Source: a virus. From it: 46,787 bases of DNA. Both the position numbers and the translations under genes were made by a program. This document shows, one piece after another, positions 3,638 to 24,959 of the stretch (the stretch's first letter is position 1; each line of letters begins with the position of its first letter). The stretch lies in IMG/VR virus record IMGVR_UViG_3300000265_000003, positions 1-46,787 of that record; one strand, given 5' to 3'. A model generated the notes under the pieces. That model was not told the origin of the DNA. It was given only the letters and a program-made list of their open reading frames with translations, and made no database searches.

Positions 3638-3645
3638 CTATTTAG
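3638..3645 (-). promoter_or_regulatory. Late-type promoter motif CTAAATAG before gp13
   Basis: The minus strand reads CTAAATAG, sharing TAAATA with the T4 late octamer, 25 bases upstream of the gp13 ATG and overlapping the stop of the preceding gene. The same CTAAATA string recurs before the genes starting at 19499 and 33218, which supports a genuine variant of the motif. Confidence 0.45.
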
Positions 3646-4160
3646 GAGAATGTATTTCCTTGATCGTAAGCGTATTCTAAAAAATATCCGTCTGCTCTTA
3701 CATAATGTAAAAACATTTGGTGGAAGTATGAATGTTTGTTGCCTTTCATCATCTCCCTCCAGTGAGGAACTTCCATTCCTCTATAAAGAACTCCATCTCC
3801 AGGATTAGTATGGCATTCAATATTTTCGCCATTTAAGTCAAACCATATTGGCCAAGAAGTTTCTAAATTATTACTAATATTTAAAGACACACTAATTTCA
3901 CATGCTTCTCTATCTGTATGTCTATCCATTTTAGTGTTCTGGAAATAAAACCTATCAAAATAGTACGTGGGGTAAAGTCTTTCACCCATCACTAATTCTA
4001 GTTTATTCTTTACTTCGTAATGTAGTTTTTTAAATTTTGGGTGTGAATAACGAGAAGAACTTACTCCCTTTATGATATCACTTTTTTCTATTTCAAATTT
4101 ATTTGCTGGTGGTTCTTTGTAGACAGAAACATCTATCAAATTTTTTAAATCTACTACCAT
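3642..4160 (-). CDS. Putative 2OG-Fe(II) oxygenase
   Basis: This cytosolic, membrane-free protein has the double-stranded beta-helix dioxygenase pattern: RHTDRE with iron ligands His81 and Asp83, then ISVSLNIS and WPIWFDL, then GDGVLYRGMEVPHW with distal His133 and the strand YFHQMFLHYVRADG. The pattern is typical of short marine-phage dioxygenases. Substrate is unknown. I use the ATG at 4160, 11 bases after the upstream stop (172 residues). A longer frame exists from a TTG at 4199 but overlaps the upstream gene, and the added 13 residues resemble no known start. It is the last of five putative oxygenase genes and is followed directly by gp13. Confidence 0.75.
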   Translation of the reverse strand: MVVDLKNLIDVSVYKEPPANKFEIEKSDIIKGVSSSRYSHPKFKKLHYEVKNKLELVMGERLYPTYYFDRFYFQNTKMDRHTDREACEISVSLNISNNLETSWPIWFDLNGENIECHTNPGDGVLYRGMEVPHWREMMKGNKHSYFHQMFLHYVRADGYFLEYAYDQGNTFS

Positions 4161-4171
4161 CCAATCTTTAA

Positions 4172-4720
4172 TTATTTCCACAATGGACCCTCTACCCAAC
4201 CTACAATAGATTTTCTATTACCATCTCGAATTTTTCTTACTCGATGTTTTATCCTACTATCAAATATGATGATAGTTCCTCTTTCTTTGGGAGCAAAAAA
4301 TGTACCATTGTTATTGTCTAGAAATTGAAGTTCTCCTCCAGAATAATCTTCGGGGGCAGATAACTGAATAGTAAAAGATAATTTCCTAATTAATCCTTCT
4401 TCTACTTCATTAATAGTATCTGTATGCCAATTATAATATTCACCAACATCATATGAAGTAAACTGTAAAGGTCTGTTTGGAGTTTTTACGAGATCATATT
4501 TGAAGTTATCTTGATTTGCCTGCATAACATAGTGATTAGCAAACCCCCCTATCCAATGAGACTGTGGTATCCAAAAAGTTTTACTATTTCTTATTGCTAC
4601 ATTTAGAACATTGTTTTTGACAGTTGCTTGTGATAAGTTAATTTCCTTTGTTTCTTCTAAAAAACTATCAATAACATACTTGGGTAATTGTGTTTTATAC
4701 CAAAATGTTTGAAAGGTCAT
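4172..4720 (-). CDS. Putative 2OG-Fe(II) oxygenase, PKHD/prolyl-4-hydroxylase type
   Basis: This 182-residue protein has a complete hydroxylase core. YDVGEYYNWHTD supplies His99 and Asp101; KLSFTIQLSAPEDYSGGELQF is the characteristic second part; GTIIIFDSRIKHRV gives His159, and NRKSIVGWVEGP supplies Arg169 for 2-oxoglutarate. This resembles the P4Hc/PiuC group, whose phage members have no established substrate. The start overlaps the upstream gene in an ATGA junction. The whole length fits a single small domain with no fusion. Confidence 0.85.
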   Translation of the reverse strand: MTFQTFWYKTQLPKYVIDSFLEETKEINLSQATVKNNVLNVAIRNSKTFWIPQSHWIGGFANHYVMQANQDNFKYDLVKTPNRPLQFTSYDVGEYYNWHTDTINEVEEGLIRKLSFTIQLSAPEDYSGGELQFLDNNNGTFFAPKERGTIIIFDSRIKHRVRKIRDGNRKSIVGWVEGPLWK

Positions 4721-5415
4721 TTTAAAAATCCATTGAATGTAATTCTATCACATTTCCAATTAGTATTAAAATATGGTATATGCCATACGTTACCTTCATA
4801 CATTAGAAGAGTATTATATTCATGTGGTTCTATGTGATACAACTCCCAACCTTTTCTATCATACGTAGATGGGTCTAAAGCGGTCATTGTACTATCCATA
4901 TTTCTTGCTCTTAGATGTCTGTAGTTGATATCCGAGCAGGTATGTTCCATGCCAGTTTCAATATGACGGCAGAACCCAGTACCACTATTAGTTCCTTCTA
5001 ATTCTTTATTCGTATTCAGTGACATTACACAAGCGTAATGCATCCAATCTACATGTGGATACATGCTCATAGTTCTACATTCGGTCCCTGGTTTATATTT
5101 TTGAATGCTAAAAATACTAAGTTTATGATTGTGTAAAATTGTTACTGGAGCAGCCATTCTTTCAAGTAACAAAGTCCTAAAGTGAACGAAAAATCTCATG
5201 TCAACTCCACCTATCCTAGATGTATATCCAGGAATAGAAGAAATTTCTCCCATGATAGTGCTCTTTAGATCTGCTTGCAATCCAATTTCTCTAACCTTAT
5301 CAGGATTGGAAAAGAAATTTTTAATTTTTAACAATCTATTTTTAGATTGTCCCACGTGAATAACATCGACCTCCCAAAACGAGGGGTCGATGTCAAACTC
5401 TTTAGCGTGTATCAT
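4717..5415 (-). CDS. Putative DUF6445-type 2OG-Fe(II) oxygenase-like protein
   Basis: The C-terminal half carries the features of the DUF6445 group. MYPHVDWMHYACVMSLN has a His121-Asp123 pair; GTGFCRHIETG follows; YEGNVWHIPYF gives His212 and DRITFNGFL gives Arg224. The ligand set H-x-D...H...R is therefore intact. The N-terminal 100 residues (FWEVDVIHVG, LLKIKNFFSNPDKVRE) fit the same family. Its reaction is unknown. The 232-residue gene overlaps the end of the coiled-coil gene by four bases (ATGA) and the start of the next oxygenase likewise, so the three are probably translated together. Confidence 0.8.
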   Translation of the reverse strand: MIHAKEFDIDPSFWEVDVIHVGQSKNRLLKIKNFFSNPDKVREIGLQADLKSTIMGEISSIPGYTSRIGGVDMRFFVHFRTLLLERMAAPVTILHNHKLSIFSIQKYKPGTECRTMSMYPHVDWMHYACVMSLNTNKELEGTNSGTGFCRHIETGMEHTCSDINYRHLRARNMDSTMTALDPSTYDRKGWELYHIEPHEYNTLLMYEGNVWHIPYFNTNWKCDRITFNGFLK

Positions 5416-5609
5416 TCTGCCGCTAGTTCTTCAGCATTAGTTTCTTCCTTCTCTTCTGGTGGATTCAACAAGTCTAGAGTTTCCACCCCACCAGATAGTT
5501 TCAATTTATACTCTCTTGCTTTAGCAAGGTTAGCTTCTAGTTCAGCAATTTGCTTATCAGTACTAGCAAGTTGCTCTTCAAAATTCTTTCTAAGTTCTGT
5601 TGTATCCAT
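5412..5609 (-). CDS. Small acidic coiled-coil protein
   Basis: The 65 residues begin MDTTELRKNFEEQLAST and form a probable coiled coil (DKQIAELEANLAKAREYKLKL), ending in an acidic tail (EEKEETNAEELAAE). The ATG at 5609 is preferred; a GTG at 5618 would add three residues (M-I-T). No enzyme motif is present. It sits in the middle of the oxygenase genes, has a late-type AATAAATA 28 bases upstream and overlaps the next gene by four bases. A partner or oligomerisation subunit is possible, but function is unknown. Confidence 0.7.
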   Translation of the reverse strand: MDTTELRKNFEEQLASTDKQIAELEANLAKAREYKLKLSGGVETLDLLNPPEEKEETNAEELAAE

Positions 5610-5637
5610 GGTAATCACATATGATAGTGTGTATTAT

Positions 5638-5645
5638 TATTTATT
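5638..5645 (-). promoter_or_regulatory. Late-type promoter octamer AATAAATA
   Basis: The minus strand reads AATAAATA about 28 bases before the ATG at 5609, at the end of the preceding oxygenase gene. It would give the second half of the oxygenase block its own late transcript. Confidence 0.4.
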
Positions 5646-6189
5646 CTACAAAAATATTGAATGCTATTGAAATTCTTTCTTCACCACTATTGTTTTCTTC
5701 TACATCATGCTCCAACCACGATGGAAAAAACAGTAACATATTTTCTTCTGGGACAATATAATGATAGGTACAACCATCATAAAAATATTTGTGATCTGTC
5801 ATTTCTTTCATCATTGCTCCTCTGGGATCATAAAATCTTATGTTACCAGAATCCTTGGGAGTTTTTACATAGTAAATACCACATAAAAATATATTTGTAT
5901 TCAAATGTGTGTGTCTGGTGTTGTAATGGTTTTCTTTATTAATGTTCGCCCAACTATGAATTTTGTAGGAAGATAACGGTTTGTTCTCTAATCTAGGAAT
6001 ATAATTTCCAATTTCCTGAAACAACATTTCGTTATAGTAATCATCTCCTTGAAATCCACCTACATTTGATCTCTCTGTATTCTTAACAGAAGAACAAAAT
6101 TTTAAAACATCTAATAGTATTTCATCTGTATCTAAATTTAATTGTGACATCCACAAGGGAGTCTCGAATAATGAAATTTGTTTATTCAA
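5641..6189 (-). CDS. Putative 2OG-Fe(II) oxygenase (TIGR02466-like), TTG start
   Basis: This 182-residue protein belongs to the same type as its upstream neighbour. YNTRHTHLNTNIF contains His93 and His95, then LCGIYYVKTP, GNIRFYDPRG, ENMLLFFPSWLEHDV with His161, and ERISIAFNIF with Arg172. The only credible start is TTG at 6189: in-frame TAA codons lie just upstream, and the next ATG (residue 14) would remove the conserved LFETPLW strand. No clear Shine-Dalgarno is visible, so translation may depend on reinitiation after the upstream gene, which ends six bases earlier in the same frame. Confidence 0.8.
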   Translation of the reverse strand: MNKQISLFETPLWMSQLNLDTDEILLDVLKFCSSVKNTERSNVGGFQGDDYYNEMLFQEIGNYIPRLENKPLSSYKIHSWANINKENHYNTRHTHLNTNIFLCGIYYVKTPKDSGNIRFYDPRGAMMKEMTDHKYFYDGCTYHYIVPEENMLLFFPSWLEHDVEENNSGEERISIAFNIFVE

Positions 6190-6195
6190 TGTTTA

Positions 6196-6780
6196 TTACA
6201 TATCAGCAAGGTTGAACGAAACAGAAATTCTATTTCCATCACAAAAATGTGGTTCTACATAATGATCCAACCAGTTTGGGAACACGAAAGCGTGACCAAT
6301 CTTTGGAGTAATTTTTTGATATACACTGTGACTATAATATCTACCAACTCTTGTTTGTGTTCGAGGATCTACAAATACTAGTTGCCCTTCATTTGGATTT
6401 AAATTTTCTGGAACATCCAAATATAAAACACCACTGTATAGACAAGACGGATGATTGTGGAAAACAGAATGATCTCCTTTTCTCATCACCATACCCCAGC
6501 AATTAATTCTTGATATATGTGGCGGGGGAATTGCTCTGTCATTAGAGACAGCATGTTCAGTCAGCATTCTATGAAGTAGAAGCTTCAGATCGTTTGACCA
6601 ATTTTCTTCTAGGTTACATAGATCATCTGTGGAATGATATCCACTAGATCCTCTCATAGAGTACTGAGAGTTGCCAGGAGATTCGGACTCTTGCTGTAAA
6701 ACATAATTAATGATGTCATGTCGAATAGTATCGATGTCTTTAATAATAAAGTCAGATACTTTGGTAATAAATAAATCCAT
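6196..6780 (-). CDS. Putative 2OG-Fe(II) oxygenase (TIGR02466-like)
   Basis: In 194 residues the conserved core runs HSVFHNHPSCLYSGVLYL (His108 and His110 as probable iron ligands, an H-x-H form), GQLVFVDPRTQ, then GHAFVFPNWLDHYV with His173 and GNRISVSFNL with Arg184. This is the pattern of the TIGR02466 putative oxygenases, whose substrate is not known. The gene ends in two consecutive TAA codons and is followed in the same frame by a paralogue starting with TTG. It is the first oxygenase gene after the fibre genes. Confidence 0.82.
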   Translation of the reverse strand: MDLFITKVSDFIIKDIDTIRHDIINYVLQQESESPGNSQYSMRGSSGYHSTDDLCNLEENWSNDLKLLLHRMLTEHAVSNDRAIPPPHISRINCWGMVMRKGDHSVFHNHPSCLYSGVLYLDVPENLNPNEGQLVFVDPRTQTRVGRYYSHSVYQKITPKIGHAFVFPNWLDHYVEPHFCDGNRISVSFNLADM

Positions 6781-20066: not shown

Positions 20067-23000
20067 TTACCTCTTAGTAATAGTGTTTACAACAGTCACC
20101 TCGATATTATCACCAGCACTTAGATCGGCACCTAGGGTAAGTGAAATACGAACATTTTGTGATCCATCAATGTCAAACAAAGAACTAATTAGTTCTTGAC
20201 CTGTCTTCACGTTATTGGTGTCGGTGAAGAAAATATCTGTTCCGTCATCGATAACCAAATATTCCGTAATTTCTTTATCCCCTGTTGTTAAGTTGTTTGC
20301 GGTTACAATAACTTTAGCCGAAGCTTCTACATTTTTGTTATAAATGGAAGCATTTCCAGTATTTGACAAACCTTTTTCTAGTTCAAGTTTGGTAGTAGAT
20401 ATTCTTACGTTCTTATAATTAATATTTGTTAGATCGCTATTCAACATAACAATATTATCTGGATTGCCAGTTCCAAATCCTAGATTATAAATGGTTTCAC
20501 CAGTATTATTAAATCTAATTAAGTGATCTGTATTTAGACCAGAAGAAAGACCGATATCAAGTTTTTCTTTAGAAGATAACACGAAGCAAGTATCAACAGT
20601 ATCTGTATCAATAGTGAGAGCAAGAGAATTGAAAGTAACTTCGGATGCTTCAATATTTAACGTACTAGACACACTACTAATAGTATCCATGGAGTCAAAC
20701 TCCATAGCCGTAGAAGTAATTCTTAACGTATTGTTTCCGCCATTTTTAAAGAATAAAATGTCTTCGTCAGCACCTGGAGAAGATTCTGCTTTAATTTCTG
20801 TATCCTGGTCAATATCTTTAACGCCGCCAAGTCCACCCCATTGAGCACCGTTATAACCTTCAAATTGAGTATCATCAGTATTATATCTAATAGATCCTCT
20901 TTCTGGAGATCCTTTAGAATTGTTATCACCAACAGGAAGAACTAGCGATGTTGGAATATCAATCTTAACTTTCTTACCTGTACTAGGAGTGATAAAAATA
21001 TCATTTAGAGTAGATGAGATATTGTTGTTAGAGAATCTCAGTTCATTATTGACTACTAGATCTGTGAATCCTGCTGGGTCAATACGAACCTCAGATACTT
21101 CTTCATAAGTAATGAAAGATACAGCACTAGTAAAGTATTTTAGAGTAGCGGAACCGTTAGCAAAGTTATTGCCAGAAGTATCTGTTGGTTCATTACCAGA
21201 AGTTGCTGCCTGTCCACCAGAAACAACTAGATAAATGTTGTTGCTATACTTTACATACTCATCAGTTACTAAACTTCCATTTGCCACCCAGTTAGTGAAT
21301 GTCGGAGCAGAAGTATTAATAGATCTAATTTTCTTGACATTAACAAACTCTTGATACTCGGGAGTAAATTTTACAGTATTAATGTTGTCATTAATAAACC
21401 ATAAAGTATTGTCATTAGCTCCTACGCTTTCTTCAGCAAGAATAGTTGTATTGCCATCTAGATCTCGTACACCACCTAAAGAAGACCAAGATCCATTAGT
21501 AGCACTATATCCTTCATATTGATTTGTTGTAGTATTGAAACGAATGTACCCATCATATGAAGTAGATGGTTTGTCTGACTCAAGACCAGCGGGAATTTTT
21601 AGAGCAGTGACTGAATCAATTTCAGTTACATCGGATGTAGATCCTGGTTTTAGAATTAGTGCTGTGCCAGGTGCCGTAGAAATTTCAGCATTTTCGATAA
21701 ACAAAAGATCATTAGAATTGATCTTACCTAGAGTTTTTACCTCTCCAGAAGTTTCTACTTTTCCTGTATCTTTATTGAGAGAAAGTAGAGAACCAACATT
21801 TACATTAGAAGTAAAATTAGTATTGACAGCAGTAACTGAAAGATCAGTAGTGGCGGTTATAGAAGATGATGTTAATGCTGTTACAGCAGCTTCTGGTGTA
21901 GCGAGCGAAGTTGTAAACGATCCAATATTAATAGTAGCAGTATCGGTAACATCTAATGTGGTAGAACCAATCTTTCCTTCACCAACATCAAAAACAATTA
22001 CATCAGTAGATTCAACATTAGTAATATTAGCAGAAACACCACTACCGAAAGCTTTTGGGTTACTGTTGTCGGTAGTTAATAGTCCTTCTTGACCATCTAT
22101 TCCCCCAGCATCTGCTACGCTAGAAGAATAAATGTATAAATCTGGAGTACTATCATTAATAGTAATTGTTAAAATGTTTGCTGCTACACTAACACCTTCT
22201 GTATATTCTGTTCCCCTAAAAGTAAACGTAGCACTACCCGATGTTGATGCTGGTAGACTGAAAGTTATTGTTGTTCCATCAATAGAACTAATAGTTGTGT
22301 CGGTAGGAACAGCGCCATCTCCAAAAGTCACAGCAGCCGACATACCAACTACCAAACCAGTAACAGAGGAAAATACTGCTTGAGTTGCTCCTAGTGTTAA
22401 AGTTGTAGTTAAATTCTGTACCGTATAATACTCTCCATCGGGAACTTCACTTAGTTTAAATATAGTTCCGTCAGTAATAACAGTGTCACTAGTATAATCA
22501 AATTGGTATGTATCTCCAGAATACAAAGTTAGATCTGGATGAAGAACACCATCAATGAAAAATCTTGAAGTTGCCGTAGTAGCACTAGCAACTGTAAATG
22601 TTGGTGATGATGTACCGTTTTCTACTAATATATCAGCGGCAACAAATCCAAGTCCATCAATTAGTATAGATCCAATAGAACCAGAGGCAGGAACACTTCT
22701 AACAGTTGCTAGTGTAGATAGAGAAGAAGATTCTACAAGGAAAGTAATGTTATCTGCTGGGGTAGATCCTCCAACATTTCCGCCATTAATTGTAATAACG
22801 TCATCAACAACATGACCAAAACCGCCATCAACAATATCTACAGATATAATTTCACCGAGCGCGCCGATTTCTCCACCATCACCTCTAGTGACTAAGAATG
22901 AAGCACCTGTTCCAGATCCAGTGGTAGAACTTTGATTAACTGTGAATTCTCCACTAGATGATGTTGTAGTTCCTGTGGGAGTACCACCTTCGATTACTCC

Positions 23001-24959
23001 ATCTCTAACTTTCACAACATCATCTACAGCAAGAGATCCAGCATTAAGAGCAGGACTGAAAGTTAATTCTTGTACTGGTCCAGCTGTTACAACTTTGGTG
23101 ATTGGTGATGACAAATCTCCAGGAGATATGGAAATAGTATCTCCTATGGAATAACCAACTCCACCTTCTGTAATAACAATAGAATTTACGACACCCGCTT
23201 GATTAATTGTGTATTCAAACTCATCCGATCCTGTGTTAGATCCCCAAGGAGGAGTAAATGTCAATGTAGGGTTGCCAGTTACTGTTGGTTCGGGTGATAG
23301 TGATATTTGATTTGTATCAGTATCAAAACTATCTAAAGTAGTTCCAGCTGCGATATTATTTCCCGAAACAAGGAATCCACTAGCAATAGTTAATGATGCT
23401 AAAGTTGGTACTGAAATTTCCCATGACTCGTCAACAAAAGAAATAGTAGCACTAGCAGTTTGTTGTCCAGGTAAATTAAGCACATTACCAGCACTATATC
23501 CTATACCATACACACTAAATTCTGGACTTCCAATAGATCCAGGATCTTCGTTTAAAGTAAATTCAAATCCAGATCCTGGTGTAGAGGCAGCGGAATTCCA
23601 TCCAAGAACATCTCCATTGTCATAACTTGCTCCAGAAGACGTGGGAAGAACAGATGTAACTGACCCATCTACTGTTTCGCTAGAAATTTCAAATACACCT
23701 ACGGTATTAGCAGCAAAAGATAAACTTCCACCATGAATTGTCAAGGAATCGTTAGGACGATAATTTAAAGCATTAGTACCTACAAAATTGAATACGGTAA
23801 TAATACCACCAGCAACTGTGATGTCAGCAGTACCACCAGATCCTTCATCTCCGCTATTTACTTGAGCTCCAGTATTTGAGACATTAATTGCCCCACCCAT
23901 ACCATCATGATTTTCACAAACATATTCAAGACTAGTCGAACCAGCAGAAGCAGCACCTCTTCTTACTACAAGTTCAACAATCGAATTAGAAGCACCGTCA
24001 TTTCCGTACTTAGTAATTATAAAATGATCAGAATTTAAACTTGTTCCTCCTGGTCCATTAAATGCTAGTGGGTGTCCATCATTAGTGGCACTAGAAACAT
24101 CGAAGTAATAAGTATTACCTTCGTAAATAGTCAATGTGTCCTGAGTTACACCATCAATTTGGAAAACATTATCTGGTGGAGGTGTGCCTGGATTCGCTAC
24201 AGTAGTTACTACAAATGTTTGAGATGCATCATTCAATACTGGAACACCAGGAAATTCTCCATCTGCTAATCCAGAGCCAGCATTAGTAATATTAATGCCG
24301 AGAGATACTGATCCAGCAACAGAAATTGTAGCGATACCCCCAGAACCACTGCCATTGCTGAAAGGTTGGTTTAAATATACACCTTGACGATATCCAGATC
24401 CACCATCAGTGATTTCTCCAGTAATTCCAGGAACTGTGAATGAAAGTGTAGCACCAGTTCCATTTCCTCCGAGCAATGGAGAAGAATAACTTCCTTCAGT
24501 ATAATTTTCTCCAGGTTGGGTGACACTGCCCGAATAACCAACTACCTGAACTGTGGCTTCGGAAAATTGACCTGTTCCTCCAATAACCCCAACCAACAAA
24601 TACGTTCCTTCATCATAACCACTACCACCATTTACGAGTTGTATTCCTGTAGTTGTAAGACTATTTTTCCTTACAATAAAGTCTTGATAAGTTACTGCTT
24701 CCGTTGGTTTATAATCAAAAATTTTCTTACCAGAAGCAGCAACTCCTAATGTAGACTGTCCCGATTTGTAAAACCCTAAAGTAGTATCACTAATAAATCC
24801 TAAAGAAGGATCGCCTACAGTTCCATCACCAATTCGTAAGACACCAGTGGACAAGTCACTACCACCTTGATAAATCTGAAACAGATTATCTCCAAGTTCA
24901 TTAATTTTTTGCCTTTGGACCTCAAAGGTATCTGTTCTGCTGACGTTAATTGCGGGCAT
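20067..24959 (-). CDS. Large fibre/baseplate protein with a cupredoxin-like domain, 1,630 residues
   Basis: The N-terminus NVSRTDTFEVQRQKINELGD is a familiar start of large cyanophage structural proteins. GSGY-type modules follow at about 110, 187, 230, 603 and 716 (for example LVNGGSGYDEGTY). Residues about 265-365 form a cupredoxin-like domain: VFQIDGVTQDTLTIYEG, YYFDVS, DGHPLAF, and EYVCENHDGMGGAINV, which supplies His, Cys, His and Met in the order of a type-1 copper site. A second copy at about 800-950 starts the same way (FFIDGVLHPDLTLYSG) but lacks the Cys-His-Met part. Two copies of an EGY...LGGV module lie near 1138-1200 and 1353-1410. It overlaps the 66-residue gene by 14 bases. Confidence 0.82.
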   Translation of the reverse strand: MPAINVSRTDTFEVQRQKINELGDNLFQIYQGGSDLSTGVLRIGDGTVGDPSLGFISDTTLGFYKSGQSTLGVAASGKKIFDYKPTEAVTYQDFIVRKNSLTTTGIQLVNGGSGYDEGTYLLVGVIGGTGQFSEATVQVVGYSGSVTQPGENYTEGSYSSPLLGGNGTGATLSFTVPGITGEITDGGSGYRQGVYLNQPFSNGSGSGGIATISVAGSVSLGINITNAGSGLADGEFPGVPVLNDASQTFVVTTVANPGTPPPDNVFQIDGVTQDTLTIYEGNTYYFDVSSATNDGHPLAFNGPGGTSLNSDHFIITKYGNDGASNSIVELVVRRGAASAGSTSLEYVCENHDGMGGAINVSNTGAQVNSGDEGSGGTADITVAGGIITVFNFVGTNALNYRPNDSLTIHGGSLSFAANTVGVFEISSETVDGSVTSVLPTSSGASYDNGDVLGWNSAASTPGSGFEFTLNEDPGSIGSPEFSVYGIGYSAGNVLNLPGQQTASATISFVDESWEISVPTLASLTIASGFLVSGNNIAAGTTLDSFDTDTNQISLSPEPTVTGNPTLTFTPPWGSNTGSDEFEYTINQAGVVNSIVITEGGVGYSIGDTISISPGDLSSPITKVVTAGPVQELTFSPALNAGSLAVDDVVKVRDGVIEGGTPTGTTTSSSGEFTVNQSSTTGSGTGASFLVTRGDGGEIGALGEIISVDIVDGGFGHVVDDVITINGGNVGGSTPADNITFLVESSSLSTLATVRSVPASGSIGSILIDGLGFVAADILVENGTSSPTFTVASATTATSRFFIDGVLHPDLTLYSGDTYQFDYTSDTVITDGTIFKLSEVPDGEYYTVQNLTTTLTLGATQAVFSSVTGLVVGMSAAVTFGDGAVPTDTTISSIDGTTITFSLPASTSGSATFTFRGTEYTEGVSVAANILTITINDSTPDLYIYSSSVADAGGIDGQEGLLTTDNSNPKAFGSGVSANITNVESTDVIVFDVGEGKIGSTTLDVTDTATINIGSFTTSLATPEAAVTALTSSSITATTDLSVTAVNTNFTSNVNVGSLLSLNKDTGKVETSGEVKTLGKINSNDLLFIENAEISTAPGTALILKPGSTSDVTEIDSVTALKIPAGLESDKPSTSYDGYIRFNTTTNQYEGYSATNGSWSSLGGVRDLDGNTTILAEESVGANDNTLWFINDNINTVKFTPEYQEFVNVKKIRSINTSAPTFTNWVANGSLVTDEYVKYSNNIYLVVSGGQAATSGNEPTDTSGNNFANGSATLKYFTSAVSFITYEEVSEVRIDPAGFTDLVVNNELRFSNNNISSTLNDIFITPSTGKKVKIDIPTSLVLPVGDNNSKGSPERGSIRYNTDDTQFEGYNGAQWGGLGGVKDIDQDTEIKAESSPGADEDILFFKNGGNNTLRITSTAMEFDSMDTISSVSSTLNIEASEVTFNSLALTIDTDTVDTCFVLSSKEKLDIGLSSGLNTDHLIRFNNTGETIYNLGFGTGNPDNIVMLNSDLTNINYKNVRISTTKLELEKGLSNTGNASIYNKNVEASAKVIVTANNLTTGDKEITEYLVIDDGTDIFFTDTNNVKTGQELISSLFDIDGSQNVRISLTLGADLSAGDNIEVTVVNTITKR

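Follow-up and report, generated by a model that had tools for sequence, protein, structure and literature searches.

A conserved cupredoxin-like domain with a putative type-1 copper site in a predicted virion protein of marine phages

Does a fibre protein of a marine phage bear a copper site on the virion? This question is raised by a 1630-aa ORF of IMG/VR virus record IMGVR_UViG_3300000265_000003, of which all 46,787 bases were analysed (hereafter the window). A sequence-only reading of this DNA had proposed that the protein contains a cupredoxin-like domain with intact copper ligands, together with a second, enlarged copy in which these ligands were lost. The genes of the window form a T4-like cyanophage structural module, with a gp6-like, a gp8-like and a DUF4815 protein as well as very long fibre/baseplate proteins. 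The profile of phrog_6005, 'virion structural protein', spans residues 1-1630 of the ORF (E=0), and a structural protein of Cyanophage S-RIM32 is 56% identical to it over the full length. By profile and homology, the ORF is a virion structural protein of the baseplate/fibre module of a T4-like cyanophage; that proteins of the phrog_6005 type are present in the particle is predicted from annotation and gene position. The protein is not named among the 45 virion proteins in the accessible text of a mass-spectrometry paper on S-SCSM1 virions. A single-sequence PDB search gave no match, and Pfam and NCBIfam searches with the whole protein returned noise only.

Elsewhere in the window, positions 3642-6780 hold three 2OG-Fe(II) oxygenase-like genes (4172-4720, 5641-6189 and 6196-6780) and, beside them, a gene matching a PHROG named ferrochelatase (3642-4199). 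These genes adjoin neck and head-closure genes. A 185-aa open frame at 21535-22092 (+) lies antisense to the structural gene and is probably fortuitous.

The sequence motifs quoted in the sequence-only reading were all found in the ORF where that reading had put them. DGHPLAF starts at residue 294 (nt 24080-24060, minus strand) and YVCENHDGMGG at residue 346 (nt 23924-23892, minus strand), while in the second copy FFIDGVLHPDLTLYSG lies at residue 800 (nt 22562-22515, minus strand) and LYIYSSSVADAGGIDG makes up the ligand loop. The first two motifs supply H296, C348, H351 and M354 with the spacing C-x2-H-x2-M, which is the His, Cys, His, Met order of type-1 copper proteins that had been proposed. 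The features are collected in the table.

Table. Features of the structural gene and its two cupredoxin-like domains (positions in the window)
Feature	Position	Strand	Basis
1630-aa virion structural protein with both domain copies	20067..24959	(-)	ORF call, phrog_6005 match, S-RIM32 homologue
Copy 1, cupredoxin-like domain, residues 262-362	23874..24176	(-)	Domain profile, AlphaFold2
His296, first equatorial ligand position, two residues ahead of a strand	24072..24074	(-)	Invariant in 60 diverse copies
Cys348, thiolate ligand position, end of the penultimate strand	23916..23918	(-)	Invariant in 60 diverse copies
His351, second equatorial ligand position	23907..23909	(-)	Invariant in 60 diverse copies
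Met354, axial ligand position	23898..23900	(-)	97% Met in alignment A2; Gln in one orthologue clade
Copy 2, second cupredoxin-like domain, residues 797-967	22059..22571	(-)	Profile, AlphaFold2, alignment A3
Degenerate ligand loop of copy 2, LYIYSSSVADAGGIDG, residue 941	22092..22139	(-)	Aligned with S-RSM4 and L180 loops
Inserted β module in copy 2, residues 848-916	22212..22418	(-)	Without counterpart in copy 1; alignment A3 and own profile
Partial further copy of the inserted module, residues 531-569	23253..23369	(-)	Profile, E 2.6e-05

The AlphaFold2 model of copy 1 (pLDDT 91.1, pTM 0.81) has seven strands in the cupredoxin/plastocyanin order, with H296 just before a strand, C348 at the end of a strand and H351 and M354 in the loop before the last strand. 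When compared with PF00127-type cupredoxins in hhalign, the domain gave probabilities of 46-72 (E 2e-4 to 3e-5, valid for a single comparison) with Cys-x2-His in register. The controls scored 0.1 (Big_2 Ig-like domains) and at most 3.4 (50 column shuffles). Profile similarity to known cupredoxins is thus present, though moderate rather than overwhelming. Over the 60 members of a diverse domain alignment, PF00127 was the best-scoring Pfam family (four of 60 members, best E 0.0012), followed by multicopper oxidase families; window copy 1 alone had no Pfam match at E 0.1, PF00127 Copper-bind included. Copy 1 resembles plastocyanin, pseudoazurin and amicyanin (PF00127) in its His...Cys-xn-His-xn-Met order and, in the AlphaFold2 model, in the Cys that ends the penultimate strand and in the order of strands, and the domain family aligns with their profiles with the ligand loop in register. 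The C-x2-H-x2-M spacing is that of amicyanin. However, plastocyanin has an Asn after the first His where copy 1 has a Pro, and unlike the PF00127 proteins the window domain has no Pfam match, is embedded in a 1630-aa virion protein and has a copper site that is predicted. We conclude from fold model and profiles that residues 262-362 are a cupredoxin-like domain with a type-1 copper ligand set, forming a putative metal site.

The sequence-only reading had named a lack of ligand conservation across homologues as an argument against its proposal. The domain profile recovered copy 1 at residues 261-364 with E 6.1e-31 (the window copy itself is one of the 60 profile rows), and H/C/H/M was kept in all 16 aligned phage homologues, where the ligands account for four of the eight invariant columns. 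Among 150 non-redundant full-length domain copies, 148 had H-C-H followed by M or Q (140 H-C-H-M and eight H-C-H-Q), one had D-C-H-L and one D-A-T-M; some scan patterns contained ligand letters and therefore favour intact copies, while the tblastn set is independent of these letters and the whole-protein scans depend little on them (one of six patterns). In the 60-member alignment, which was picked for diversity and has members 22-64% identical to the window copy, the only invariant columns were one Tyr and the positions of H296, C348 and H351. Because of this conservation across homologues, the ligand set is not a matter of chance, and the proposal withstands the argument from homologues.

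The changes that do occur are in keeping with known chemistry. Met is the axial residue among orthologues, and in one clade members with Gln occur beside others with Met; both residues are known axial ligands of blue copper proteins. Copy 1 with an axial Gln has its counterpart in stellacyanin-type proteins, a likeness drawn from general knowledge and confined to ligand type. The ligand loop is C-x2-H-x2-M in most copies, with x3 in a few relatives (L047, L060) and x4 in Sf-CH1b (C-V-N-H-A-A-S-Q-M), which is tallied as Q in the axial-residue count although its x4 loop reaches a Met. As judged from the alignments, this range of spacings resembles that of known blue copper loops. These Met/Gln and loop-length changes suggest that a metal is held: they would be expected in that case and are hard to explain otherwise.

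We also examined the second copy. The domain profile matched its first half at residues 797-877 (E 1.9e-10) and, in the same order, its second half weakly at 914-949 (0.16). Its AlphaFold2 model reached a pLDDT of 87.3, and a Foldseek search with this model listed the cupredoxin AcoP and laccases, weakly. The existence of a second copy, its enlargement, which is due to the inserted β module, and the loss of its ligands were all borne out. In alignment A3, the ligand positions of window copy 2 are T832, S945, V948 and A951, whereas S-RSM4 and L180 have H, C, H and M at the same positions; the loop LYIYSSSVADAGGIDG aligns with LYYYCLNHADMAGEDG of S-RSM4 and LYYYCQVHSDMSGEDG of L180. As these two have all four ligands, copy 2 can hold the full set. 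On the alignment and profile evidence, copy 2 is a true second copy, split by an insert of about 70 residues.

It is conceivable that window copy 2 has not simply decayed, and that it is an adapted scaffold in which the inserted module took over a function. The insert occurs in every copy 2 version in alignment A3, and a related module lies elsewhere in the chain (residues 531-569). However, the versions that carry the insert include the canonical ones, so that replacement of the lost site by the insert alone was rejected, and in S-WAM2 both insert and ligands are lost. We regard this explanation as rather doubtful.

Of 77 chains that cover both positions, 18 have a canonical copy 2 (His and CxxHxxM), 38 have a long-loop variant and 21 have a copy 2 without ligands. 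The first His and the Cys were retained in all 38 long-loop variants, which comprise C-x6-H-x2-E in 33 cases, C-x6-H-x2-M in three and shorter loops in two. For instance, copy 2 of L192:8935-9537, L201:8935-9537 and other orthologues has His/Cys/His with C-x6-H and a Glu at the axial position (HxxE). The C-x6-H-x2-E variant looks like a possible carboxylate-axial copper site; in placing a Glu at the axial position it recalls the Glu ligand of nitrosocyanin-type proteins, again from general knowledge and in ligand type only. One orthologue (L320:5186-8824) is spread over several open frames, and the gene looks interrupted or misassembled.

The states of the two copies appear to be linked. Copy 1 was canonical in 55 of the 77 chains, and none of these 55 had a canonical copy 2; their copy 2 is either of the long-loop kind or, as in the window, no longer has its ligands. 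Conversely, copy 1 is not canonical in 22 chains, and 18 of these had a canonical copy 2; in three of the 18, a degenerate copy 1 is still there (L306 and the near-identical pair L288 and L291). A Fisher test, in which kinship is ignored, gave p 4e-14. In a tree built without the two domains, the copy 1 and copy 2 states each change at least nine times, and independent pairs on supported branches gave 3.8 of six changes in the opposite direction and none in the same direction (p 0.125, an underpowered test). In addition, seven further isolates lacked copy 1: five of them had a canonical copy 2, S-B43 the long variant and S-WAM2 none. In S-WAM2 (L339:1001-4780), the chain is without any canonical site. 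Overall, no chain among the 84 showed two canonical sites, and 78 showed a single one. S-B43 and S-WAM2 break the rule 'one canonical site in every chain', and only 'never two' is free of exceptions. Since some phages carry further domain copies in other genes, the at-most-one rule holds per chain and not per genome.

The domain was also found far from the window virus. By tblastn against phage records, 50 records with the domain were obtained, including phages of Synechococcus, Prochlorococcus, Pelagibacter and Methylophilales, and IMG/VR scans yielded 55 relatives for the window domain and, for the consensus domain, at least 586. It occurs in fibres of Pelagibacter podophages, in Melnitz-type Methylophilales phages and in S-TIM5. 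As judged by homology, the domain is widespread in fibre and baseplate proteins of marine phages and not peculiar to the window virus. Given that hundreds of ocean viruses share the domain and its residues, a metal site may be present on the tails of many marine viruses. Cyanophage PSS2 (L012:4013-4351) encodes the domain as a separate 112-aa protein, in which three of the four ligands are lost (D-A-T-M). In bacterial assemblies, the domain was found in phage-like sequences binned with bacteria. In marine bacteria, SAR86 among them, it also forms the end of lipoproteins that have a clear lipobox. One SAR86 secreted lipoprotein (L031:5851-6333, about 161 aa) consists of little beyond the domain and has all four ligands. 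Two others (L030:4630-6336 and L034:4636-6330) carry it C-terminally and have no Pfam match at 0.01; L030 contains a protease-like HExxH stretch (HEYFH).

What, then, does the conserved site do? Our preferred reading, which we hold to be probable, is that the virion bears a cupredoxin whose site is functional, is probably of the type-1 copper kind and may take part in host contact. This reading has to be weighed against a generic Ig-like or β-sandwich decoration domain whose YxC-x2-H-x2-M loop would be structural and without metal. Phage fibres often carry Ig-like domains, and structure searches lean in this direction: Foldseek of copy 1 against the PDB found nothing at E<0.001, put Ig-like chains first and had no cupredoxin in the top 50. 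A PDB profile search likewise mixed plastocyanins and pseudoazurin (weak, E 0.4-1.3) with antibodies, which match through a shared YYC stretch. However, the TM-scores to the Ig-like chains are just 0.28-0.45 by query length, and hhalign scores the Big_2 domains far below the cupredoxins. Moreover, 58 of the 60 aligned copies have a single Cys, so that Cys348 is not half of a disulphide and the disulphide of Ig domains is missing. An Ig-like identity of copy 1 was rejected for want of a Cys pair and of profile similarity to Big_2. A structural loop would also leave unexplained two invariant His and an invariant Cys amid a variable domain, as well as the Met/Gln exchange, and we consider it decidedly unlikely. 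A cupredoxin fold could instead hold another metal, such as zinc or iron, or else Cu(I) as a static ion that is purely structural and plays no part in redox chemistry. Sites made of Cys, His, His and Met can take up several metals in vitro. There is also a precedent for metal on phage fibres, as HxH motifs on T4 gp37 and on Alteromonas phage R22Y bind iron, a matter connected with the Ferrojan horse idea (PMC11705849). Like these fibres, which are discussed for ocean phages, copy 1 would place a transition-metal site on a phage tail protein, though this site is predicted; they differ in that the HxH fibres bind iron through paired His at the fibre tip, whereas copy 1 has a four-ligand set with a thiolate in one small domain (PMC11705849). 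No HxH motif is present in the copy 1 sequence, and the ligand order, the spacing and the Met/Gln axial exchange are exactly those of type-1 copper proteins, which makes another metal or a static ion unlikely.

The virion might also use the site as a redox element, exchanging an electron with the host surface or sensing copper or redox state before DNA injection. Most type-1 sites carry electrons, and cyanophages have plastocyanin genes of their own, which homology traced in 401 phage records; in the S-CAM4 record, this cupredoxin, PetE, occurs together with the virion domain. On the other hand, PetE has a signal-like segment at its start and is a separate family, encoded by an auxiliary metabolic gene at other loci. 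With the PetE set alone, the virion domain gave an hhalign probability of 11, which is remote. A recent origin of the domain from phage PetE was rejected, as the similarity is remote and the loci differ. The domain belongs to a long structural protein, for which Pfam and PHROG profile searches recognised no partner redox centre, and it occurs in phages of non-photosynthetic hosts (Pelagibacter, Methylophilales) as well. We consider a redox role highly improbable.

According to the favoured reading, a virion cupredoxin, residues 262-362 would bind a single metal ion, most likely copper; His296, Cys348, His351 and Met354 would make up this mononuclear type-1-like site. Free copper is scarce in the cytoplasm, which makes the loading of a virion site a real question. 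The protein would fold metal-free in the host cytoplasm, and copper would be taken up later, either in seawater once the cell has lysed or when the virion meets the host envelope; such late loading is likely because virions assemble in the copper-scarce cytoplasm. The loaded site would then fix the ligand loop at the exposed tip of the domain, where the loop would contact the host surface and not take part in long-range electron transfer. A contact role is likelier than electron transfer because the site would form an exposed end in a chain with repeated β modules, because no partner redox centre was recognised and because the hosts range from photosynthetic to heterotrophic. A broader proposal, which we put forward as tentative and on balance doubtful, is that several kinds of marine tailed phages bear true type-1 copper centres on their virions, formed by a family that Pfam does not recognise. 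The cyanophage chain would keep one working canonical site, whose place would have switched between two positions, the second of them also having a carboxylate-axial long-loop variant; host contact or particle function would require the metal.

Nothing relevant on cupredoxin or blue copper domains of virions or phage tails came out of a search of the open-access literature. This agrees with the earlier view that a copper site on a virion would be unexpected; as a claim of rarity that view does not stand, since the domain is commonly met with among marine phages. Both fold and site are of a known kind. A virion-borne version in fibre and baseplate proteins that is not recognised by Pfam and has two alternative positions per chain was not found in the open-access literature, where the nearest published idea is that of iron on phage fibres through HxH motifs (PMC11705849).

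The family forms a natural series of ligand variants (Met, Gln and Glu, loops from x2 to x6, and complete loss) at two positions of one protein. If copper is bound, the idea of iron on phage tails would be extended to copper, with a well-understood site, and abundant ocean phages would have virions that are copper proteins. This would have consequences for host attachment, for the trace-metal chemistry of seawater and for the dependence of infectivity on copper and chelators.
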